From positions 1-24,023 of IMG/VR virus record IMGVR_UViG_3300005935_000140: a stretch of 24,023 bases of DNA. One strand, given 5' to 3'. The notes under the pieces were generated by a model. It was not told the DNA's origin, did not search any database, and saw only the letters and a program-made list of their open reading frames with translations. Position numbers and translations under genes: made by a program. This stretch comes from a virus. How positions within the stretch are numbered: position 1 is the stretch's first letter; every line of letters starts with the position of its first letter. Shown here piece after piece: positions 1-24,023 of this stretch.

Positions 1-268
1 TATGCTCTTCTAAAATTTTCAAAGCTTTCAAAACTGACTTTTTCCGTAACCTATTCCGTAACCTATCAAATTCTTCTTTTAGCTCCGGTTTATTTTCTAT
101 CCACTTATAATTATTTTCTATCCACTTATAATATGTTGATACACTAATCTTAGCATAATAACACGCCTCTTTGATAGTTCCGTCCATTGCAAGTATTTGC
201 ATTAGCTTTCGTATCTTGTCATCAGTCATTGTTGGTCGGCCATGTGGGCGCTTTTTTATTTCTACCAT
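1..268 (-). CDS. Terminase small subunit-like HTH protein (partial, 3' end beyond the window)
   Basis: This gene is not an intact ORF in the window because its 3' end lies left of base 1. It starts at ATG 268-266, seven bases behind a strong Shine-Dalgarno (GGAGAGG), and overlaps the end of the ParB-methyltransferase gene by 7 bp. The visible 89 codons begin MVEIKKRPHGRPTMTDDKIR and continue with a helix-turn-helix of the type 'KEACYYAKISVSTYYKWIE'. That pattern, followed by a basic helical stretch, is typical of phage small terminases and related homeodomain-like proteins, which recognise packaging sites for the large subunit. Two in-frame tandem duplications (7 aa and 4 aa) lie just behind the HTH; removing both restores a canonical-looking sequence. 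A different phage HTH protein is possible. The large terminase would be expected next, outside the window. Confidence 0.55.
   Translation of the reverse strand, partial: MVEIKKRPHGRPTMTDDKIRKLMQILAMDGTIKEACYYAKISVSTYYKWIENNYKWIENKPELKEEFDRLRNRLRKKSVLKALKILEEH
42..65. repeat. 12-bp perfect tandem duplication (2 copies)
   Basis: Bases 42-53 and 54-65 are identical (ttccgtaaccta), also in the small-terminase-like gene and also in frame; the unit encodes four residues (RLRN/RLRK). Confidence 0.95.
90..131. repeat. 21-bp perfect tandem duplication (2 copies)
   Basis: Bases 90-110 and 111-131 are identical 21-mers, side by side, inside the small-terminase-like gene. The unit is a multiple of three and duplicates the peptide YKWIENN, so the reading frame is kept. 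Confidence 0.95.
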
Positions 269-1581
269 ATGATTTCCTCTCCATTTTTAATTACTGTTGT
301 GTTCCCGGTGTATTCTAAATATCTTGTAACTATAACGTCAACGTATTTCGGGTCCAGTTCCATCATGAAGCATTTTCTTTGGGTCTTTTCGGCCGCTATT
401 AATGTGCTCCCTGATCCACCGAATAAATCTAATACTGTCTGCCCATGCTCGGATGAGTTTATTATTGCCTCGGTGCATAATGCCACTGGCTTCATTGTCG
501 GATGTTTTTGGCTCTTGGTTGGTTTGTCATGTCGCCAAATATCTGTCCTCTGGCGCTTTCGTATTACGCTACCCTCTTTTATTTCTCCCTTTAGTCTAAC
601 CTTGAAGCCTTGGAATTCTATCAATGTGTATCCGTCCTTGTACGATGTTTTAACTTTCCGCAAATCTTCCCACACATTTGCTTTGCCTCTGTCATCTGTA
701 AAAAAGTGATTGGTTATTTCTTTTGACCATCCGTACAGTATTGGCTCGTAGGTATGCTGGTAGTCCGCCCGGCTCAGTGTAAAATTATTTTTTACCCATA
801 TGATATATGATTGCCAGTGTCCGCCTTTATGTTTGAATGCTTTTGTTAGGTTTCCCAGTTCACTCGAGCTCATGCATATGTAAACTCCGCCCTTGGTAAA
901 TTCTATTATATTCGCACAGACATCACTAAGGAATTTAAAGAATTGCTCATCGCTCATTTTGTCGTTTAAAATTACCTCTCGCTTTTTTTCTTTATTCCAA
1001 TCGCCTGATGCACCTCCGGTGTAATCAACATTGTACGGCGGGTCTGTAAAACACATTTGCGCTTTGTGCCCATCCATCAACTTCTCCACGTTGCTTCGTT
1101 CCGTGCTTGATCCACACATTAGCCTATGCTCTCCTATCTTATAAATATCCCCAAGCTTTGACTGTGCTATTTCTGGAACGTCCGGGACATCATCGTCCTT
1201 TGGCTCGTTGTCTATAATCAAGTCGCTATCAAACCCGGTAAGCTTTAAATTTTCAAATGACATATTCTTTAGCTCCTCAATAACTAATTCCATTTCCCAG
1301 TCGCTCTCGTTCAGCTTATTGTCAGCTAATCGATAGGAGCGCGCTTTCTCCTCATCCAATTCAATGGTTAATACCGGGATTTCTGTCATGCCTAATTTTT
1401 GAGCGGCGAAGTATCTCCCATGGCCAACTATTATCACTCTGTTATTATCTGTTACCACAGGTTGGTTAAAACCAAAGGCTTTTATCGACTCTGCTATTTG
1501 TCGTAGCTGTTTCGGCGGGTGTTTCTTCGCATTCTTATCGTATGGCCGGATGTCCTGGATTGGTGTCTGGACTATATTCAT
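262..1581 (-). CDS. ParB-domain / DNA N4- or N6-methyltransferase fusion
   Basis: The 439-aa product has two parts. Residues 1-95 form a ParB/Srx-like N-terminal domain (IRPYDKNAKKHP near the start, GHGR at 53-56, ADNKLNE near 86-92). Residues about 140-425 form an S-adenosylmethionine-dependent DNA methyltransferase. The catalytic motif DPPY is at 180-183, before the SAM-binding FGGSGS motif at 387-392, which is the beta-class motif order. HPTMKP at 360-365 is another conserved methylase signature. This fusion is common in phages and prophages; it probably modifies phage DNA, for protection from host restriction or for marking packaging or replication sites. It starts directly after the stop of the secreted-protein gene and ends inside the start of the small-terminase-like gene. 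Target specificity cannot be read from sequence. The stop is TAG. Confidence 0.93.
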   Translation of the reverse strand: MNIVQTPIQDIRPYDKNAKKHPPKQLRQIAESIKAFGFNQPVVTDNNRVIIVGHGRYFAAQKLGMTEIPVLTIELDEEKARSYRLADNKLNESDWEMELVIEELKNMSFENLKLTGFDSDLIIDNEPKDDDVPDVPEIAQSKLGDIYKIGEHRLMCGSSTERSNVEKLMDGHKAQMCFTDPPYNVDYTGGASGDWNKEKKREVILNDKMSDEQFFKFLSDVCANIIEFTKGGVYICMSSSELGNLTKAFKHKGGHWQSYIIWVKNNFTLSRADYQHTYEPILYGWSKEITNHFFTDDRGKANVWEDLRKVKTSYKDGYTLIEFQGFKVRLKGEIKEGSVIRKRQRTDIWRHDKPTKSQKHPTMKPVALCTEAIINSSEHGQTVLDLFGGSGSTLIAAEKTQRKCFMMELDPKYVDVIVTRYLEYTGNTTVIKNGEEIIW

Positions 1582-2376
1582 TTATTCAACTTCAATTGTT
1601 ATATTATCCTCAATCCCTTGGCATTTAAAATTAATGACATGAGTTCCTACTGTTTTGAATTCGTACTTGTACGGATAGTATGATACGACTTTTCCGTCTA
1701 CCTTGGTTACAGCTCCAATTCCCTGAGTATCTTTTCCTGTTCCCTTAATCATTTTATTCTGATTTTTGTCTGTCGCCGTAACGTGGACGTTATGCCTCAG
1801 TGTAGCGTTCCCCTCGTCATTCCGGCATACCGCTCCTAAAACAATACTGTTCTGGTCTGTTGGCTCTACACTGCCCTCCTTGAGTGTCCCGTCTGGGTTA
1901 ACTTGATAATCGTTAGCTTTATAAACTTTGCTAGTTTTTAATTTTATAATCTGTATACTCTTCATAGATATTTCCTCGTTAGTATTTAATGGTGGCTGAA
2001 TAATTGGCTCTGTAATAATCGGTTCTTTTATTGTTGGGATGCTTACTGTCGGCTCTAGAATTATAACCGGTGCAATTACTGGCTCGGTTATTTCTGGCAC
2101 ACTACCAGCATATAATTTTTCTTCTAGAATTTCAAGTAAATCCTCGTTAGTTATTCCGAGTGAGTATTTGCGTAAAATTTCCCATGCATCCTGTGGCGTT
2201 GCCATGTGTATGCGAGTACCTTGCGGAGTTATTAGCCATGCCTCTCCTCGGCTTTCTACTTGTAGTAAAATTCGGTATTCTAATCGATCAGCGAGTGAGG
2301 CTGATGAACGCACGTTTATCGGTATTAGTAAGATTGCTATTAATGCTAAAATTGTTAATAACTGTTTTTTAAACAT
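1582..2376 (-). CDS. Secreted protein with CPR-type surface domain and Ig-like C-terminus
   Basis: The 264-aa product opens with a signal peptide or anchor (MFKK, then a hydrophobic core to about residue 20, then SSASLA). Residues about 31-85 carry a domain that I recognise as abundant in Parcubacteria/CPR surface proteins; its key stretches are RILLQVESRGEAW (35-47), the DAWEILRK region and SLGITNEDL. A Pro/Ile/Glu-rich linker (about 93-133) with repeated EP-I units follows, then a beta-rich C-terminal region (about 140-264) that ends like an Ig-fold (HVINFKCQGIEDNITIEVE) and contains two cysteines. It probably sits on or outside the infected cell surface. Superinfection exclusion, envelope modification or a host-derived moron gene are all possible. 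It has no obvious Shine-Dalgarno. The domain recognition is from memory and its function is unknown. Confidence 0.7.
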   Translation of the reverse strand: MFKKQLLTILALIAILLIPINVRSSASLADRLEYRILLQVESRGEAWLITPQGTRIHMATPQDAWEILRKYSLGITNEDLLEILEEKLYAGSVPEITEPVIAPVIILEPTVSIPTIKEPIITEPIIQPPLNTNEEISMKSIQIIKLKTSKVYKANDYQVNPDGTLKEGSVEPTDQNSIVLGAVCRNDEGNATLRHNVHVTATDKNQNKMIKGTGKDTQGIGAVTKVDGKVVSYYPYKYEFKTVGTHVINFKCQGIEDNITIEVE

Positions 2377-2435: not shown

Positions 2436-3017
2436 CTATGCTAAGTGTTTACCCTCTACGCCACGTTTTTCTCTGTTCTTTGTTCTTTCGTTAAGCCACA
2501 TCAATGCTTCCTCCATTTTAATAATTGCATTTTTATTTTCTCTACAAGTAAAACGAGAGTTTAAATTTTTCAGCCTTTCGATAGATATCTTTAACATTTC
2601 TTCGAGAGTTGTACCGTTATCATAAGAACCGTCATCGTTTAATTTATAGAAAGTTACTTTTTGAAATTTCTGAGTTCCCTCTTTATCTTCGGGACTAGAA
2701 AAATCTCGCTTGAATTGCATTAAAGCATATTCATTTACTTCTTCTGTTTTTTTTGGCTCTACCATTTGTTTATGATTATTAAATAAACTAATAAATTTGT
2801 CTGCTTCCATACGATCGTTCTCTTTTTCTTCTTCATCTAATTCTGTGTAAGGAGTGTTCATTTGTCTTTTTAAAGCTAAATAATAGTTTAAATTAATTAT
2901 TTTTCCTCCTCCATCTTTATCTCTACATTGACTAAACAAATATTTCATCCACCCAGACCATTGCTCATGGCAAAGTGAAGCCAATCTCTCTCTATAAATT
3001 TTTTCAACTTCTGTCAT
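2436..3017 (-). CDS. HEQWSGWM-domain protein with Acb2/Tad1-like C-terminal hairpin (candidate cyclic-nucleotide sponge)
   Basis: I place the start at ATG 3017, four bases after the GroEL stop and behind UAGGGA. The frame also opens upstream at a TTG inside GroEL. The 193-aa product has two recognisable ends. Residues 1-80 (HEQWSGWMKYLF at 17-28, MNTPYTELDEEEKENDR around 53-69) match an uncharacterised domain widespread in phages. Residues about 137-190 (EEMLKISIERLKNL, CRENKNAIIKMEEALMWLNER, RGVEGKH) match the helical-hairpin pattern I associate with Acb2/Tad1-type proteins. Acb2 binds CBASS cyclic nucleotides, and some relatives bind the Thoeris signal gcADPR, blocking abortive infection. 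The middle (85-135) is polar and probably a linker. The Acb2 link is from memory and needs a profile or structure search; without it the protein is a conserved phage hypothetical. Confidence 0.6.
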   Translation of the reverse strand: MTEVEKIYRERLASLCHEQWSGWMKYLFSQCRDKDGGGKIINLNYYLALKRQMNTPYTELDEEEKENDRMEADKFISLFNNHKQMVEPKKTEEVNEYALMQFKRDFSSPEDKEGTQKFQKVTFYKLNDDGSYDNGTTLEEMLKISIERLKNLNSRFTCRENKNAIIKMEEALMWLNERTKNREKRGVEGKHLA

Positions 3018-3021
3018 ATAT

Positions 3022-4545
3022 TTATTCCCTAACAATTGGCGGTTTCTTCTCTGCCTCTACTAACATGCCACAGCTAGTTACTAATACTGAGGCGATTGAT
3101 ACTGCGCTCTCAACTCCTGCTAAAAGCGTTTCTGATGGGTCTATAACGCCAACCTCCATGTATCCTCCTATTTTTCCTGTAACAACGTTCTCAGCTGAGT
3201 TGGGCTCTAATTCTATCTCATCTAATCCCATGTTATCCCTTAATTGTCTTGCTGGATATTGTAATGCCTCATTTAAAAGCTGGCTACTTGTATTAATTCT
3301 AGCTAAAGCAAGTCCTGCTCCACAAACTACTCCGCTGTTGTAAGCCGCCTTTACTGAATTAACCACATCCTCAACTTTATATTTCAACGCTTTCAGTTCA
3401 TTTTCAGTAGGTGCGCCTACTTTAATTACAGCGACCTTATTCGTAAACATTGATAATCGTTTTTCTAATTCCTTTTTGATTCTCTCGCTCTCTTCTTCCT
3501 GGATATTTTTTCTCAATGCAAATATTGCAGTATCAATTGACTCTTTATCTCCTTTAGGGTCTACAACTATTGACTCGTCCCGGCGACAGATAAATTTTGC
3601 TGCCCGGCCTAAATCAGATATTTCTACATTCTCTAGCTTATCGCCTTTTGCCTCGCTAAACATTTTAGCGCCAGTTAGCATTGCTAAATCCTCTAGCCAT
3701 ATTTTATTATTCTCTCCCTTTGGCGCGTTCACTGCTACTATCAAAAATTTTCCTTGCATCTTATTAATAATAATAGTTGATAGAGCTGACTGTTCTACTC
3801 CCTCGGCAATAATAACCAATTCTTTTTTATTGTCCTTTGACATTTTCTCCATTAACTTTATAACATCATTGACCTCTGTCATCCGGTAATCAGTTATTAA
3901 AATATAAGGCTTTTCTAAAACAGTTTCCATTCGCTCCGGATTGATTATCATGTACGGACTGATGTATCCGTTTTCTACTTTGATACCGTCAGTCATCTCT
4001 GTTGTCGTTTGCATTGTTGGTGACCTGTCAATGGTTATCACCCCGTCTTTTCCTATTTTGCTGTAGAGCTCGGCAATCATCTCGGCAATTTTTTCGTTAT
4101 CAAATGACACCATGGCCACTTTTTTTAAATCTTCCTTACTTTCAATCGGAGTAGTCATTTCTTTAATCTGTTTTTTGACATCTTCTAATCCAGCCACTAA
4201 TTCTTTTTCTACTTTTCTGCCATCTCGTTTTCTATGAGATACCTGGTCAATAATTGCCTGTAGCATAATTAGTGAGCTGGTAGTTCCATCACCAACTCTG
4301 TCATTCGTTCTAACCGCTACCTCTCTTATAACTTGAACGATTGCATTCTCGGCTGGGTCTGGTAGTTCAAAGTCACGCGCTATTTGTACGCCGTCATCAA
4401 CTATCATTCTGTATGGAATTTTAGAAATAACTACTTTGTTATTTGCTGGACCATAAGTCGGTTTAATAAAATCAACCATCTGATCAACTGCTGACTTTAT
4501 AGTTTCAAATGTTTTGTCCTTAACGATTTTTACTTCTGTACTCAT
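3022..4545 (-). CDS. groEL: Phage-encoded GroEL-type chaperonin (Hsp60)
   Basis: The 507-aa product is a group I chaperonin subunit, expected to form ring oligomers that fold proteins in the cytoplasm with ATP and the GroES lid. Hallmarks seen are KPTYGPANNKVVIS (28-41, the TLGP phosphate-loop region), DDGV with Asp51 (equivalent of E. coli Asp52), GDGTTS at 85-90 (Asp86, equivalent of Asp87), and VEDVVNSVKAA with Asp393 (equivalent of Asp398). All acidic residues needed for ATP hydrolysis are therefore present. It is about 40 residues shorter than bacterial GroEL and lacks the GGM-repeat tail, ending EKKPPIVRE. It lies four bases upstream of the Acb2-like gene and 11 bases downstream of the zinc-protein gene. 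No Shine-Dalgarno is evident. Phage GroELs in other systems fold capsid or other phage proteins; the substrate here is unknown. Confidence 0.96.
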   Translation of the reverse strand: MSTEVKIVKDKTFETIKSAVDQMVDFIKPTYGPANNKVVISKIPYRMIVDDGVQIARDFELPDPAENAIVQVIREVAVRTNDRVGDGTTSSLIMLQAIIDQVSHRKRDGRKVEKELVAGLEDVKKQIKEMTTPIESKEDLKKVAMVSFDNEKIAEMIAELYSKIGKDGVITIDRSPTMQTTTEMTDGIKVENGYISPYMIINPERMETVLEKPYILITDYRMTEVNDVIKLMEKMSKDNKKELVIIAEGVEQSALSTIIINKMQGKFLIVAVNAPKGENNKIWLEDLAMLTGAKMFSEAKGDKLENVEISDLGRAAKFICRRDESIVVDPKGDKESIDTAIFALRKNIQEEESERIKKELEKRLSMFTNKVAVIKVGAPTENELKALKYKVEDVVNSVKAAYNSGVVCGAGLALARINTSSQLLNEALQYPARQLRDNMGLDEIELEPNSAENVVTGKIGGYMEVGVIDPSETLLAGVESAVSIASVLVTSCGMLVEAEKKPPIVRE

Positions 4546-4556
4546 AATGAATTTTG

Positions 4557-4817
4557 TTAAATATTAATTATACATTTTTCCGGGTGGTAAACTTTATTAT
4601 AAATCCTTTTTGTCGCTCCACCACGCTGACAAAAATTGCGGACGTGGGCTTTTAGATATTCAACATTATCTACTCGCCCTTTGTATCCTTTGTTAAATCT
4701 AAATTTTTTATTGCAAATATTGCACCGCTCCCACTTGTATTTCTTGTTCTGATTTATTATGTGTAAATCGTGAGGGATGCCTCGGTATTTGCAACCTAGT
4801 TCGTCTGTATATCTCAT
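4557..4817 (-). CDS. Small putative zinc-binding protein between groES and groEL
   Basis: The start is ATG 4817, one base after the GroES stop and behind GAGG with 6-nt spacing; the upstream TTG at 4829 would destroy this arrangement. The 86-aa product is basic and has a CxxC knuckle (ERCNICNKKFRF), a later conserved-looking block KGRVDNVEYLKAHVRNFCQ, and YHPEKC near the end, so one zinc site built from Cys/His pairs is plausible. I have seen similar sequences in phage genomes without assigned function. Its position between the lid and barrel genes of the chaperonin, in the same operon, suggests co-expression but does not prove a chaperonin role. Confidence 0.75.
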   Translation of the reverse strand: MRYTDELGCKYRGIPHDLHIINQNKKYKWERCNICNKKFRFNKGYKGRVDNVEYLKAHVRNFCQRGGATKRIYNKVYHPEKCIINI

Positions 4818-4818
4818 A

Positions 4819-5103
4819 TTATTCCTCAATTAACGCTAATACGTCATCATCAAATAATAAAACATAATCCACTTCCTCATCGCTCTCTTTAAGACTGATT
4901 TGCTCCCCGGCAAATGCTCCGTAAATAACACGGTCATCTTTTTTAATATCGTCAATTCCCTCGCCGACTTCAATGACTGTACCCATAGCTTTTGACTCTT
5001 GCTCTACATCGTCCGGCGTGATAATCCCACTGTCGCTTACACGAGATTTTTCATCGTCCGGCTTTACTAAAACTTGTTTTTTTCTTGGTTTGATTTTAAT
5101 CAT
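4819..5103 (-). CDS. groES: Phage-encoded GroES-type co-chaperonin (Hsp10)
   Basis: The 94-aa product has the GroES fold signature: an N-terminal strand IKPRKKQVLVKPDD, a mobile-loop region with SDSGIITPDDVEQES (hydrophobic IIT at the GroEL-binding position), a GTVIEVGEG turn followed by a KKDDRVIYGAFAG strand, and the terminal DDDVLALIEE, which matches the ESDILAIVE-type ending of GroES. Length is normal for the family. It would cap the GroEL encoded two genes downstream. It has an A/T-rich leader without a Shine-Dalgarno. Having both subunits in one phage operon implies a self-sufficient chaperonin rather than dependence on the host lid. Confidence 0.95.
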   Translation of the reverse strand: MIKIKPRKKQVLVKPDDEKSRVSDSGIITPDDVEQESKAMGTVIEVGEGIDDIKKDDRVIYGAFAGEQISLKESDEEVDYVLLFDDDVLALIEE

Positions 5104-5105
5104 AT

Positions 5106-5351
5106 TTATTGTAAGTCAGATAATTTAGTATCCTTGCCCTCGCTTTTATTGCGCGAGATTATTTTCGCTCTAGTTTCGTCCTCGTCCGATGGGGGAATGT
5201 ATATAAATCCCTTAGGACGAGGACTCTTATTGTCTACGGCAGTTTGCACCGACTCAATTCGCTTTTCGATTACTCGGCGAAAATAAGTTAGCGTGGTGAT
5301 TATTATTAACGCTATGAGTAATCCTGTAATTGTTCCTAGTGCAAACATCAT
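5106..5351 (-). CDS. Small single-pass membrane protein
   Basis: I place the start at ATG 5351 because CGGAGG sits about 7 bases upstream and the preceding gene ends at 5353; the frame is open further upstream but that part overlaps the 87-aa gene. The 81-aa product starts MMFALGTITGLLIALIIITTL, a clear transmembrane helix at residues 2-23, followed by a basic stretch (YFRRVIEKRIE) and a polar, lysine/aspartate-rich tail. By the positive-inside rule the tail is probably cytoplasmic. It is co-transcribed with groES and groEL. Function is unknown. Confidence 0.7.
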   Translation of the reverse strand: MMFALGTITGLLIALIIITTLTYFRRVIEKRIESVQTAVDNKSPRPKGFIYIPPSDEDETRAKIISRNKSEGKDTKLSDLQ

Positions 5352-5352
5352 A

Positions 5353-5616
5353 TTAAGCCTCCGATAATGCTTCGTCTTTTTTAACTTCTTCTGCTCCCGG
5401 TTTAGCTCCCTCAGCTTGCTTTTTAATTTCCTCAGCGTCAAATAATTGAGGCATCGCTACTGTTCGTCCGTCTGGAGTAAAAGCTGGCTTTGCTCCTAGC
5501 ACGAGGTTATATTTTCCTAGTAACGTTTTCAATTCTTCGTTGAATTGATTTACCCTTAGATTTAACTTGTCTTGTTTAATTTGCTCTGGTGTTTTTTCCT
5601 CTTTTGGCTCTGCCAT
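5353..5616 (-). CDS. Small conserved phage hypothetical protein, first gene of the chaperonin operon
   Basis: The 87-aa product is charged and mostly helical (KEEKTPEQIKQDKLNLRVNQFNEELKTLL). A central segment, NLVLGAKPAFTPDGRTVAMPQLFD, resembles a short beta-hairpin motif seen in small phage proteins of unknown role; an acidic Ala/Lys-rich tail follows. It is the first gene after the promoter at 5643-5670, and its ATG at 5616 has an A/T-rich leader without a Shine-Dalgarno. Confidence 0.7.
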   Translation of the reverse strand: MAEPKEEKTPEQIKQDKLNLRVNQFNEELKTLLGKYNLVLGAKPAFTPDGRTVAMPQLFDAEEIKKQAEGAKPGAEEVKKDEALSEA

Positions 5617-5642
5617 AAAAATTGTTATTAATTTATAATTAT

Positions 5643-5670
5643 ATTATATCACTTATCAAATGTTATGCAA
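5643..5670 (-). promoter_or_regulatory. Sigma70-type promoter of the chaperonin operon
   Basis: On the minus strand: -35 TTGCAT (5670-5665), 16-nt spacer, -10 TATAAT (5648-5643), preceded by TGA as an extended -10. The ATG of the first gene is about 27 nt after the -10. The same architecture recurs at 13394-13421 and 14634-14661, including the GTGATATAAT core. Confidence 0.82.
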
Positions 5671-5684
5671 GTTTTTAAAATTAG

Positions 5685-5717
5685 TGAGGAGATATTAACG
5701 TTTGTAACACCTCCTCA
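5685..5717 (-). terminator. Candidate terminator hairpin upstream of the chaperonin promoter
   Basis: TGAGGAG (5685-5691) and CTCCTCA (5711-5717) form a 7-bp stem, extendable by one G-U pair, with a 19-nt loop. In minus-strand RNA it is followed by CUAAUUUUAAAAAC. It falls after the last gene of the preceding block and before the next promoter, a sensible place to stop transcription, but the U-run is short. Confidence 0.4.
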
Positions 5718-6018: not shown

Positions 6019-6384
6019 TTAGTGTATGTTGCCGATAACTTTACAATACTTTATAAAATAAATACTATCTTCATCTTCATCTGGCATCCCTATAAATCCA
6101 GTGCCATGCCATACTACTTTGCTCATTACTTCTTCTTCCCATTTATCAGCTCCGTCTTTTCCATCATTACTTGTAGCTAAAATATCATCTTCAAAAATAT
6201 CTGTACCATTCTTATCAGGAAGTCCAGTAAACTACCCTACTGTTTTAGGGTCTACTTCGTGCATATTTGGCACGCCATTAGTAGTGCCCCATAAGATATA
6301 AGATTTCTCCCAATGTTCAAATAAATAACCTTGAACCCAATCTCCTGTATTTTTAGTTTTTCCACGAAATTTAATTTCTCTCAT
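6019..6384 (-). pseudogene. YopX family gene interrupted by an in-frame amber codon
   Basis: The frame from ATG 6384 to TAA 6021-6019 is exactly 122 codons and encodes a typical YopX phage protein: MREIKFRGKTKNTGDWVQGY, then HEVDPKTVG, then FTGLPDKNGTDIFEDDILA, then a strand-rich end. The family consensus at the junction is TVGQFTGL-DKNG. Here the glutamine codon is TAG (6234-6232, codon 51). There is no frameshift and the rest is intact, so the lesion is one CAG-to-TAG change: a nonsense mutation, a suppressed codon or a sequencing error. Translation would stop at 50 residues. YopX proteins are common in phages and their function is not settled. The first codons and the leader are shared with the neighbouring methyltransferase gene through a 43-bp repeat. 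Confidence 0.85.
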
Positions 6385-6418
6385 ATTATTTATACAGTTA
6401 ATTAATTAGTTTTTCTTT
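6376..6418. repeat. 43-bp direct repeat, copy 1 (YopX leader and start)
   Basis: Identical over 43 bases to 7006-7048. This copy spans the first codons of YopX (MRE) and its leader. The outer part of the sequence is the coding 3' end of the 120-aa gene in copy 2, but here it is non-coding, after the methyltransferase stop. Confidence 0.95.
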
Positions 6419-6423
6419 TAGGA

Positions 6424-7014
6424 TTAAATCCATACTATTGTTGGTTTGCCTGTATATTCTATTTCCCAAACATACCAAGCAAAAGCCATTGTACTACTCA
6501 TCTTTTTTCCATTATCATCAAGTTCTTTTCCATTCCTCATTAGTTGCTGTCGCTTTTTAAAAACATAAACTGTCCGTAGGGGTGTAGTTTCTAAATATGT
6601 TGCCCGCTTAATTCCCTCTAGTGCTTGTAGCTTGCCAAAAAAGATTACTTTCTTATTAGCCATCTGCAATGATTTTTCTAAAAACTCTTGAAATAAATTA
6701 AAAGGTGGGTTTGTTATTATTGTATTAATAGCTGTTATATCAGTTAAATTTGTTATCATATTTTTCAATGTTTCATCACTTAAAAAATCAACTCCACCGA
6801 TTCCAAAATTTCTATATATTAAATCAGTTGATAAAATAGTACCAACAACTTCTTTAGATATATGCCCTTCTCCGCAAGCACATTCCCAAGCTGGATATAT
6901 AATTGTTTCAACTTTAAGTAATGCTTTTACGCTATCTGGATGAGTAGCATAAAAATCATTCTCAACTCTACCTCGTGCTGGATTACCTCCAGCTAGTTTA
7001 CCACCTTCTCTCAT
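6424..7014 (-). CDS. Phage DNA adenine-methyltransferase-like protein
   Basis: The 196-aa product shows a class I methyltransferase pattern. AWECACGEGHISKEV (42-56) is the SAM-binding motif I, STDLIYRNFG is the motif II/III region, and IITNPPFNLFQEFL (99-112) holds the catalytic NPPF of amino-methyltransferases. The VENDFYATHP opening and the C-terminal STMAFAWYVWEIEY block are typical of small phage DNA N6-adenine methylases. It probably protects phage DNA from restriction or re-patterns methylation. Its first three residues, MRE, belong to the 43-bp repeat shared with YopX and are probably not native. The whole gene lies between the two repeat copies, so it looks like an inserted cassette. 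Confidence 0.8.
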   Translation of the reverse strand: MREGGKLAGGNPARGRVENDFYATHPDSVKALLKVETIIYPAWECACGEGHISKEVVGTILSTDLIYRNFGIGGVDFLSDETLKNMITNLTDITAINTIITNPPFNLFQEFLEKSLQMANKKVIFFGKLQALEGIKRATYLETTPLRTVYVFKKRQQLMRNGKELDDNGKKMSSTMAFAWYVWEIEYTGKPTIVWI

Positions 7015-7048
7015 ATTATTTATACAGTTAATTAATTAGTTTTTCTTT
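7006..7048. repeat. 43-bp direct repeat, copy 2 (120-aa gene end / methyltransferase start)
   Basis: Identical to 6376-6418, with the copies 630 bp apart. This copy contains the last codons (KEKLIN) and stop of the 120-aa gene, the spacer, and the ATG plus first codons of the methyltransferase. Confidence 0.95.
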
Positions 7049-7858: not shown

Positions 7859-8006
7859 ATAGTAAGTATCCAAACCTTGCCATGAGATAAATACCAAATG
7901 CTATTACTAGAAAAGCATCGAATCTATTTTTTACTATATTCTCATGAGTATTTATGTAAATAACTGATGATAATAATGCGATTGCAATAATTGTTGCTTC
8001 AAACAT
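7845..8006 (-). CDS. Small two-helix membrane protein (53 aa)
   Basis: The frame from ATG 8006 to TAG 7847-7845 encodes MFEATIIAIALLSSVIYI, a short charged loop (NTHENIVKNRFD), and AFLVIAFGIYLMARFGYLLY, giving two transmembrane helices at about 3-18 and 31-50. It begins four bases after the initiator gene stop and overlaps the next small gene. Two-helix phage proteins of this size include accessory lysis, exclusion and membrane-tethering factors, and nothing here tells which. Confidence 0.6.
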   Translation of the reverse strand: MFEATIIAIALLSSVIYINTHENIVKNRFDAFLVIAFGIYLMARFGYLLYASA

Positions 8007-8010
8007 ATTT

Positions 8011-8733
8011 TTAAACCTTAGTTAATTCTGGGTAGAATTGTAAATTAATTTTAACGTTTTTGTCCCGGGCATCGACCCATTCCCCACAGTGCATTTTTGC
8101 CTTTGTGCCATCGTGTAAATCTCTTACTGAATTTTCTTTCTTAGCTCTAATTATTATTTCGTCCTCCCATGCTCTGTTGTTGAAAAATGTTTCGGGGTTT
8201 TTTCGGTACTGCTTTTCTGGGCAGGCTTTTAAATATTCCGGGATGTAATTAATAATTGCTTGCCTCTCTTCGTCTTTTAGTTTAACCCACTTCTTTTCTG
8301 CCTTTGGCTTGCCGACCTTTTTGTCATATAAATTCCAGAAGAACTCGAAGTCTATATTTATATTTTTCTTTATTACTTTAACTTCTTTATTACTTATGCC
8401 TTGGGTTTCCCCTGTCGGGTATATTGCCCGACAGGGATTTTCCCTGTTAGGCTTTTTCCCGATTTGGCATTTTAAATAATAACTAACTTTGCCTGTCTTT
8501 AATCTCTTGCGTTCAAGGTATCCAGTTTTTTCTAGCTCTCTTAAACCCGATAAAACGCCATCAACTCCGTCCTTTGAGTCGTTTGCTATTCTGTCTGAAG
8601 AAAAATCCCAGCCGTCTGGCTTAGAATATAAATAACTATAAATTCCTTTGGCTTTGAACGATAAACCGCTGTCATATAAAAGTATATTTGCGACCTGCGT
8701 AAAACCTATTGATTGTTTTATTAATTTATTCAT
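8011..8733 (-). CDS. Winged-helix replication initiator-like protein
   Basis: The 240-aa product has an N-terminal winged-helix domain (residues 1-90). FTQVANILLYDSGLSFKAKGIYSYLYSKPDGW and the helix-turn-helix ending in LRELEKTGYLERKR match the HTH_36/phage replication-organiser type. The middle (100-125) is linker-like. The C-terminal segment FEFFWNLYDKKVGKPKAEKKW to KNPETFFNNRAWEDE matches the tail found in many phage replication initiators and DnaD/DnaB-loader-like proteins. It probably binds the phage origin and recruits host replication proteins. The intergenic leader before it has interleaved inverted repeats that could be its binding site or a control element. Confidence 0.78.
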   Translation of the reverse strand: MNKLIKQSIGFTQVANILLYDSGLSFKAKGIYSYLYSKPDGWDFSSDRIANDSKDGVDGVLSGLRELEKTGYLERKRLKTGKVSYYLKCQIGKKPNRENPCRAIYPTGETQGISNKEVKVIKKNINIDFEFFWNLYDKKVGKPKAEKKWVKLKDEERQAIINYIPEYLKACPEKQYRKNPETFFNNRAWEDEIIIRAKKENSVRDLHDGTKAKMHCGEWVDARDKNVKINLQFYPELTKV

Positions 8734-8858
8734 GCGACAAGCATTATTAAGTTATAGCATAAAAGCCGTGTATCGTTCTAGCAATCCGCAAAGATTTTTG
8801 TGCTATTACAATAAACGGCTTTTACGCCTTTGCGGACTGTTTATATTATACTATATTT
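8734..8858 (-). promoter_or_regulatory. Structured leader with two interleaved inverted repeats before the initiator gene
   Basis: This 125-bp non-coding gap holds arm A TAAAAGCCGT (8760-8769) pairing with A' (8815-8824, 10 bp), and arm B TCCGCAAAG (8785-8793) pairing with B' (8828-8836, 9 bp). The order A-B-A'-B' allows an H-type pseudoknot or two mutually exclusive stems. TGCTAT (8801-8806) and ATAGCA (8754-8759) add a further complementary pair. A TATAAT (8850-8845) on the minus strand could be a -10 starting RNA at about 8838, right at the B' arm, but no good -35 is visible. It could also be an origin or initiator-binding site. Confidence 0.55.
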
Positions 8859-9299
8859 TTATGGTTTTGTGGTGTGGATAAGATTATTTTCAATTAAATA
8901 AATTAGCATTTTAGCACGAGCGTCTGCTTCGGTTTTTGCAGTACCTCTTGAACCATTTATTGCCAAGTCCAAATTTCCACCGTAGCCACAATACCAATAA
9001 TCGCCACTATCATTGCGCCAAATTTTTAAATGATTTTCCTTATTATTTTTTAATACTATCGTTGGTAAAAGTTTTCCTAATTCTGCTACTGTGAAAGCGG
9101 AAACTATATTTTTTTCAGGGACCCACGCTGTAATTTTTGTTGTTTGTTTCATCAAAGTATAAGTAACTTCAATTTGCCAATCTTTATTTTTTTTATCTTC
9201 TTTCGGATTAAACCAACAAAACAAACTCTCTTGTTTCACACCTAATTCTTTTAATTTTTTAGCAAGCTCTAGGCTTACTACTTGGTCTTTTAATTTCAT
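8859..9299 (-). CDS. Phage hypothetical protein, ADARAK-LIYL family (paralogue 2)
   Basis: The 146-aa product shares its C-terminal signature EADARAKMLIYLIENNLI with the 120-aa protein at 7028-7390. The remainder shows the usual pattern of the family: an N-terminal helix EL AKKLKELGVKQ, a strand segment ESLFCWFN, and AFTVAELGKLLP before a Trp/Tyr-rich core. Function is unknown. It is followed by the structured leader of the initiator gene. The A/T-rich leader of this gene has no Shine-Dalgarno. Confidence 0.7.
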   Translation of the reverse strand: MKLKDQVVSLELAKKLKELGVKQESLFCWFNPKEDKKNKDWQIEVTYTLMKQTTKITAWVPEKNIVSAFTVAELGKLLPTIVLKNNKENHLKIWRNDSGDYWYCGYGGNLDLAINGSRGTAKTEADARAKMLIYLIENNLIHTTKP

Positions 9300-9311
9300 A
9301 ATATATATTAA

Positions 9312-9755
9312 TTAATTACTCTCATCGTCCCATCCTATATTATCAGGCAACGGAATTTGCACTTTTAAATAATCCGCCGCCCACACTCTAATTTGTGTCA
9401 TCCAGTCTTCCCACTCAACCGTGTTTAATTTCGCACTGCCCTTAAAAATAGGTAGTTGGTCATCTCCAGCTACTCTCAAAAACTTAGCTTTCATTGATTC
9501 GTGCATCTCGTCTTGGCTGTACCCAGTGCTTTCACAAATCAATGGCAAAACTACAGCCCAGTAGTATCCGTTCTGATTTCCTTTCTCATTGTCTTGTCCT
9601 GTTGTTCGGCACTTTCTAAATTGAGCGACTGAAATATTAACTTCGCTGTCTTCTTTGAAGTTTATTTTTAGCCAACGGTTGTAACTGTATGAGTCGTTCA
9701 AAACAACTTTTCCGTCTTTAATTTTCCCCTTGAATTTTGGTCGTGGTTTTGACAT
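9312..9755 (-). CDS. NinB-like recombination protein candidate
   Basis: The 147-aa product has the layout of phage NinB/recombination accessory proteins: an N-terminal strand-rich part, then NQNGYYWAVVLPLICESTGYSQDEMHESMKAKFL (about 60-93, residues typical of the family around YYW and HE), and a C-terminal WEDWMTQIRVWAADYLKVQIPLPD segment. NinB (Orf) of lambda helps load annealing or recombination proteins on SSB-coated DNA, which would fit the ERF and nuclease genes upstream in the same operon. Its first 38 bases overlap the end of the zinc-ribbon gene. The NinB assignment is tentative. Confidence 0.5.
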   Translation of the reverse strand: MSKPRPKFKGKIKDGKVVLNDSYSYNRWLKINFKEDSEVNISVAQFRKCRTTGQDNEKGNQNGYYWAVVLPLICESTGYSQDEMHESMKAKFLRVAGDDQLPIFKGSAKLNTVEWEDWMTQIRVWAADYLKVQIPLPDNIGWDDESN

Positions 9756-23062: not shown

Positions 23063-23674
23063 TTAAAATAGTTGAAAGAAATCTCCAGTAACTACTACTG
23101 GTATAGGAGCTGGTCTAAAATCATCATAATATGCATCACCAACCATGCCACTACCAGTATAAAGTTCTAATTTTTTTATTGTGTCATAACTATTATAAGT
23201 AGATGCATTTCCACTCCATTCGCTCCATTCTGATTCTCCGTATTCTCTAATCCTTGCTTTATATGTTGAACTACCTATGTTAAATTCTATTTCTAACTGA
23301 TACCACGTATCAACTGAAAAAGATGCTAAAACCTCTTGATCGTTTCCTGCTCCTCTTGCTTTTATTATAATATCTCCATCAGGATCAAAAATAACCATCA
23401 TTTGTGTTTTTGATCCACCGAACCAAACTGCGAAATAATTATTAGAAGATGTTGTGCTACTTTTTCTCATGGCGAAAACAATATTTCCAGAAGAAACTCC
23501 ACTAAAATCACCACTAGCTATATATTTATTTCCAGCACTGACTTTAACAGCTTTAGCTCCTTCAGCTGTAACAGAAGTTTGTACACCGAAATCAGAATCA
23601 CCAGACCAACTATCTTGTCCGTTTAAAGCGGCTGTATTTAAAGAATTAAAATTTTCTTCATATTTCCAAGCCAT
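23063..23674 (-). CDS. LamG/concanavalin A-like protein, receptor-binding candidate
   Basis: The 203-aa product is a beta-sandwich lectin-type sequence: MAWKYEENFNSLNTAALNGQDSW opening, alternating hydrophobic strands, FAVWFGGSKTQMMVIFDPDGD in the middle, and the usual end TIKKLELYTGSG-VGDAYYDDFRPAP where the final YYDDF strand is typical. In phages such proteins bind cell-surface glycans, which suits a tail gene. It is followed by the tail hub gene. Confidence 0.68.
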   Translation of the reverse strand: MAWKYEENFNSLNTAALNGQDSWSGDSDFGVQTSVTAEGAKAVKVSAGNKYIASGDFSGVSSGNIVFAMRKSSTTSSNNYFAVWFGGSKTQMMVIFDPDGDIIIKARGAGNDQEVLASFSVDTWYQLEIEFNIGSSTYKARIREYGESEWSEWSGNASTYNSYDTIKKLELYTGSGMVGDAYYDDFRPAPIPVVVTGDFFQLF

Positions 23675-23678
23675 ATAT

Positions 23679-24023
23679 TTAAGTTTCGTTAGCTACTGAA
23701 TTAATTAAATATTCTTCTATTTGCTCTTTTGTAGTGTGTTTCATTCCATATTTCTTATGAAATTCTTTGTGAGCCTTCTCTGATAAAGTAATACCGTTAT
23801 CTATAGCTAACCTTAATTCTGGAAAATCAGCCCAATTATTAATATGATGTACTACCAAATTACCACCAACTATTCCATATTTTTGACAAGTATATCCATC
23901 TCTAGCAAAACAAGCATCTCTCCAAAGCTTGTATTCAATTCTTCCCATTTCAGTGTGTCTTTCTTTTCTGTAAATACCACCTTTCCAATTATGATGATTT
24001 TCTCCTCTTTTATTAAGCATCAT
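23679..24023 (-). CDS. HNH homing-type endonuclease (possibly partial)
   Basis: The 114 visible residues run from the window edge to TAA at 23681-23679, and the 5' end may lie outside. GENHHNWKGG is the usual N-terminal tag of mobile HNH enzymes, followed by the core DGYTCQKYG-VGGNLVVHHINNW with the HH catalytic pair, DNGITL, and AHKEFHKKYG with the second metal histidines. The usual paired cysteines are reduced to a single one (CQKY, SEKAH), a known zinc-less variant of the family. Such free-standing endonucleases spread by cutting intronless or enzyme-free relatives. It sits in the late virion block. Confidence 0.82.
   Translation of the reverse strand: MMLNKRGENHHNWKGGIYRKERHTEMGRIEYKLWRDACFARDGYTCQKYGIVGGNLVVHHINNWADFPELRLAIDNGITLSEKAHKEFHKKYGMKHTTKEQIEEYLINSVANET

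Follow-up and report, generated by a model that had tools for sequence, protein, structure and literature searches.

Several kinds of chaperonin genes have been described in phages. Gp31 of T4 and CocO of RB49 are lid proteins that use the GroEL of the host; gp31 has no roof beta-hairpin, so this element is not strictly defining for GroES, and without the roof the cage has more room for the T4 capsid protein. The giant phages EL, OBP and AR9 encode GroEL homologues whose rings are single or contact each other in an altered way; these chaperonins reportedly need no co-chaperonin, and altered or separated rings have been described for EL and OBP (PMC7185714, PMC5934643). Viral group I GroEL/GroES are also found in the virioplankton, in viruses with genomes above 70 kb according to PMC9611531, which cites Marine et al. 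2017, and Southern Ocean viruses are reported to encode GroEL/GroES analogues commonly (PMC8407431). Moreover, groES and groEL are adjacent in Flavobacterium phage immuto and Bacteroides phage SJC03, and groES also occurs in Vibrio phages Va1 and 144E46.1. For phages of CPR bacteria, a keyword search of two studies (PMC12911398, PMC10746230) found no mention of a chaperonin.

An earlier, sequence-only reading of the locus described here had regarded phage GroEL as rare, and phage GroEL together with its own GroES as rarer. Both statements have to be given up, as GroEL matches occur in 251 phage records (some of them bacterial contamination), the Southern Ocean viruses are reported to carry analogues of both commonly (PMC8407431), and the pair is already annotated in several phages. 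Top phage-database matches such as Enterococcus phage Efs 1-1-1 and MT835992 were set aside as apparent bacterial contamination with canonical bacterial GroEL; glutamate-synthase-like genes lie beside groEL in MT835992. Acinetobacter phage MD-2021a, with metabolic genes around groEL, was set aside as apparent contamination as well.

Our analysis concerns the window, by which we mean the whole stretch of DNA studied, a 24,023-base IMG/VR virus contig (IMGVR_UViG_3300005935_000140) with all main genes on the minus strand. The reading that we favour, with a probability of roughly 0.7, is that its groES and groEL form an old group I chaperonin pair of small CPR phages, dedicated to morphogenesis and working as a GroES-capped cage with altered ring stacking, perhaps as single rings, with a small Cys/His protein as accessory. 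New compared with the described systems are the small genome, the link to CPR, the third gene at its fixed place and the structural losses shared across the clade.

The chaperonin locus and its phage genome

The groES-groEL locus covers positions 3022-5103 of the window on the minus strand (Table 1), and neither of the two reading frames has an internal stop. It had been described as a complete, promoter-led GroES/GroEL operon. Both genes are indeed intact, but the locus is not barrel and lid alone, because a gene for a Cys/His protein lies between them. The frame listed for this third gene (4557-4829) begins with TTG, and the ATG start of Table 1 is likelier. A GAGG precedes this ATG, which overlaps the groES stop; no clear Shine-Dalgarno sequence is seen upstream of the groES (5103) or groEL (4545) starts. 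The promoter is the weak part of the description: on the coding strand, the site that most resembles a sigma-70 promoter (5666-5638, 10/12) is separated from groES by two genes, and no conserved promoter was found upstream of the unit in the relatives, where the mean best match is 7.4/12 vs 7.6 in random stretches.

Table 1. Features of the chaperonin locus and its flanks in the window
Feature	Coordinates	Strand	Remarks
264-aa protein	1582..2376	-	downstream of groEL in relatives too
phage protein, phrog_2428	2436..3035	-	overlaps 3' end of groEL
groEL	3022..4545	-	507 aa, divergent subunit of a group I chaperonin; Pfam, PHROG, AlphaFold2, structure match
Cys/His (zinc-ribbon-like) protein	4557..4817	-	86 aa, orphan family; between groES and groEL
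groES	4819..5103	-	co-chaperonin, 94 aa; Cpn10, phrog_3188, alignment
small one-TM-like protein	5106..5441	-	adjoins groES upstream; true start probably further in (~81 aa)
87-aa protein	5353..5616	-	first gene of probable transcription unit; in 24/28 related loci
possible sigma-70-like promoter	5638..5666	-	ATAACA-17-TATAAT; five-gene unit
terminator-like hairpin	5685..5717	-	just upstream of possible promoter

The window GroEL is 100% identical in three other contigs, and overlaps with one contig (L022) close a ring (L022 1-697 = window 23327-24023; L022 15393-15684 = window 1-292), which gives a phage genome of about 38.7 kb. The part outside the window encodes the small terminase subunit, a large terminase of the GpA type, a candidate portal/head-tail protein and the major head protein, while the window itself also encodes tail-adaptor-like, M23 peptidase, holin, Erf recombinase and replication-initiator genes and a protein related to proteins released on infection. 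The proposed phage origin is supported, and the source is probably a small dsDNA tailed phage of CPR/Patescibacteria. The chaperonin takes about 5% of this genome (~38 kb).

A clade of related phages

Scanning with GroES gave relatives at 47-67%, and a scan with the GroEL of the first relatives gave 51 viral loci, most of them at 53-66%. Among the 51 loci examined below, those from CPR MAGs were included, and the sister group (40-42%) and further copies of the window's phage were excluded; a few of the 51 are near-duplicates. They make up a clade of about 50 contigs, whose GroELs stand far from those of bacteria, CPR and other phages. The set groES, ~85-aa Cys/His protein and groEL is complete in 43 of the 51 loci, always in this order and on one strand. 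Five of the eight remaining loci begin right at the edge of their contig (L134, L142, L147, L149, L155); in L120 groES is fragmentary and the middle gene absent, L122 contains a gap, and in L136 the middle gene is present but its 430 upstream bases hold no groES. The one-TM-like protein, its membrane character read from the sequence, stands upstream of groES in all 28 related loci tested, and the large terminase lies downstream on the same strand, 0.8-6.7 kb from the set, in every one of the 37 loci that hold it. A sister group (L167-L170, L172) has GroELs of 458-465 aa, 40-42% identical to that of the window (50% for the fragment L172), and an 81-aa GroES, without the Cys/His gene.

The nine longest contigs of the clade measure 37.1-41.1 kb, so that the genomes (~37-41 kb) are smaller than those of the virioplankton GroEL viruses as given in PMC9611531, and than those of immuto and SJC03 (160-167 kb). 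The GroELs of the latter two phages are 30-32% identical to the window GroEL, have canonical length and fall among other GroELs in the tree, and no Cys/His gene separates their groES and groEL. T4 gp31 and RB49 CocO are likewise phage lid proteins, and gp31 is also roofless, but the clade phages bring their own barrel.

The Cys/His protein has five residues that are invariant in the clade comparison (C13, H20, C36, C39 and H62). It matched none of 50,697 phage records and had no convincing sequence match in Pfam or the PDB, and its model (pLDDT 80.7) gave no convincing fold match (best Foldseek E 0.67). A scan from the ~85-aa protein retrieved 32 contigs, all of them in the GroEL set or with a phage-type GroEL. 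We take it to be a probable accessory of the chaperonin machine.

Probable hosts and likely clients

CPR/Patescibacteria are ultra-small and among the most reduced bacteria known. In a set with one genome per species (84,980 species), the clade GroEL has five matches in four MAGs, all of CPR/Patescibacteria (two Parcubacteria, one WWE3 and one unassigned), which supports the earlier assignment to a CPR phage on the basis of co-binning. Four of the five MAG contigs carry neighbouring phage genes of the same group, whereas in the fifth, from WWE3, an 87-N gap is all that connects the phage part with bacterial DNA. The reading of this contig (L122) as an integrated prophage is not supported, since the join spans the gap and the upstream ORF is not groES. 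The G+C contents of phage and host contigs agree roughly, an agreement that binning itself favours. Two different phage contigs of the clade (L119, L121) come from a single Parcubacteria MAG, CG1_02_58_44.

All four clade-bearing MAGs have a canonical groES and a separate canonical groEL, and Cpn60 is present in 171 of 192 Patescibacteria genomes. The phage is therefore not filling the absence of a chaperonin, and the suggestion that it serves folding needs unmet by the host fails in the sense of a missing host machine. An unmet need, should one exist, would concern a cage of another kind rather than a cage as such.

Alternatively, the phage chaperonin might mainly refold or protect host proteins during infection, under stress or cold, rather than virion proteins, and cold adaptation has been proposed for the Southern Ocean viral GroEL/ES (PMC8407431). 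We consider this unlikely, because the set adjoins packaging genes and not an early or metabolic module, and because the hosts already own GroEL/ES. Moreover, the names of the clade-bearing MAGs suggest what we take to be groundwater sites, not cold seas. Service to virion proteins remains the reading that we prefer, and from gene position the likeliest clients would be head, portal or ejection proteins.

Structural features of the phage GroEL and GroES

The window GroEL is a group I chaperonin with the equatorial, intermediate and apical fold, encoded alongside its co-chaperonin GroES. It matches Pfam Cpn60_TCP1 with 104.8 bits (cut-off 34.3) and PHROG_5725, 'chaperonin groEL', with E 3.9e-106. 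Its AlphaFold2 model, with the window and fetched sequences (50) as input, has pLDDT 89.4 and pTM 0.79, and of the known structures it matches GroEL-ADP best (Z 41.5 over 496 residues). In the alignment it keeps E. coli T30, G32, P33, D52, D87, G88, T89, T90, D398, G414 and D495; the ATPase aspartates earlier read as intact at 51, 86 and 393 align with D52, D87 and D398, which bears out that reading. The GroES-contact positions 234, 237 and 264 remain hydrophobic, and the residues for binding substrate and GroES are preserved. The apical protrusion of a built-in lid of group II type was not found in the GroEL alignment. In one clade member (L156, GroEL at 7986-9542) an Asn occupies the position of the catalytic Asp398 (VKYKVDNAINAV).

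The GroES has a Cpn10 domain (Pfam, 3.3e-15) and matches phrog_3188 (1.5e-13). It retains a mobile loop, SDSGIITPDD, with the hydrophobic tripeptide in SGIITP, corresponding to GLILP in other members and GGIVLT in E. coli; the third hydrophobic residue is Thr in the window and near relatives, which is atypical. According to the alignment, the roof loop (~9 aa, the roof hairpin of E. coli GroES) is absent across the clade; T4 gp31 likewise lacks these residues, and they are full in four of five host GroES sampled. By analogy with gp31, a lid without roof loop would probably make the cage roomier than that of the host.

The phage pair thus resembles the bacterial and CPR GroES-GroEL in its three-domain fold, ATPase residues, apical hydrophobic groove, mobile loop and neighbouring genes. 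However, it differs in the roofless GroES, in the extra Cys/His gene and in the loss of GroEL residues 107-109, 423-436 and 468-473 and of the GGM tail, which is absent from the window GroEL. A gap at E. coli E434 occurs in all 24 clade GroELs sampled vs none of 15 CPR host GroELs; where gaps were listed, the missing residues are 423-436, two or three around 106-109, and 468-473 (468-471 in one). E434, A109 and 461-464 are ring-ring interface positions of GroEL, several of them represented by named GroEL mutants. The staggered double ring of the E. coli type is not universal, since mHsp60 can be single-ring. With the E434 segment, the 107-109 loop and the 468-473 segment lost, the rings are probably not stacked like those of E. 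coli GroEL, and on such sequence grounds they may act singly. Some ring-ring contact may nevertheless remain, because R452 is kept in 13 of 24 clade GroELs and an acidic residue at 461 in 23 of 24.

These interface losses recall EL, OBP and AR9, with their altered or separated rings (PMC7185714, PMC5934643), and AR9 is among the structural matches of the window GroEL. An open-ring, aggregation-preventing chaperonin independent of GroES, with groES being incidental, seems to us slightly less probable still than a role for host proteins. GroES accompanies GroEL in 43 of 51 loci, most of the others being cut at a contig end, and the GroES-contact positions are still hydrophobic. Moreover, the sequence is much closer to classical GroEL, and EL, OBP and AR9 are not among the PDB sequence matches listed. 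The chaperonins of the three giant phages are reported to do without a co-chaperonin, whereas the clade phages of ~38 kb have a dedicated GroES.

Origin of the phage GroEL

In a GroEL tree of 75 rows that sampled bacterial, CPR host and other viral GroELs, the clade and its sister group come out as monophyletic (SH-aLRT 100). Their branch is about 1.3 substitutions per site long, and they lie apart from every bacterial, CPR and other viral GroEL sampled. They do not branch inside one recent bacterial clade, and the view that this GroEL is not a recent bacterial pick-up is upheld. The window GroEL shares 32-37% identity with CPR host GroELs and 31% with that of E. coli. We regard the clade as an old phage lineage; its exact placement is unsafe owing to the long branch, and an ancient CPR origin is conceivable because a grouping of phage and CPR host GroELs on one side of the branch is not rejected (p-AU 0.565). 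A single lineage for all viral GroELs, in a set that includes some bacterial-looking records, was rejected (p-AU 9.4e-5).

Recent capture of a host groES-groEL operon, working like the host double-ring machine, is largely refuted by tree and identity and very improbable: the homology to bacterial GroEL with all ATPase residues and the unrejected CPR grouping are compatible with it, but against it stand the low identity to CPR host GroELs, the monophyletic clade on its long branch, clade-wide deletions found in no sampled CPR host, and the lack of a nearer cellular relative among the 84,980 species, searched with signature patterns.

A proposed phage folding cage

The interface losses of GroEL and the roofless GroES, taken as sequence features, lead us to propose an ATP-driven, GroES-capped cage with altered or single rings for virion assembly. 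In the proposed mechanism, the GroEL rings would bind unfolded phage proteins, and on ATP binding the phage GroES would cap the ring via its hydrophobic mobile loop. The client protein would then fold inside the capped cage, roomier than the host's owing to the roofless lid, with altered or single rings, and the small Cys/His protein would act as an accessory of the machine. A more far-reaching version, which we offer tentatively and think rather unlikely, is a three-component CPR-phage chaperonin with an obligately single or differently stacked GroEL, a roofless, cage-enlarging GroES, and the third protein as a zinc-binding subunit or adaptor, for a client beyond the host GroEL/ES.

Dozens of related contigs, from phages with genomes of about 38 kb, keep a complete chaperonin although their hosts own GroES/GroEL, so that the idea of a folding cage specialised for phages can be put to the test in this clade. 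Because ring-ring contacts and the lid roof are consistently lost, specific structural features can be predicted, and with its fixed third gene the set may include a chaperonin component that has yet to be described. The three-gene set also offers a handle to recognise this CPR phage group in metagenomes.

Other observations on the phage genome

In the window, a perfect 43-bp direct repeat (6376-6418 and 7006-7048) lies on either side of a 196-aa DNA methyltransferase-like ORF (6424-7014), which matches the C-terminal part of its PHROG only. Short repeats are found around 56-334, near a gene for a ParB-N/N6-N4 DNA methyltransferase (262-1581). Contig G002 carries this gene like the window; contigs G001 and G003 are without it (absent part ~293-1590) and are otherwise more than 99.9% identical to the window.
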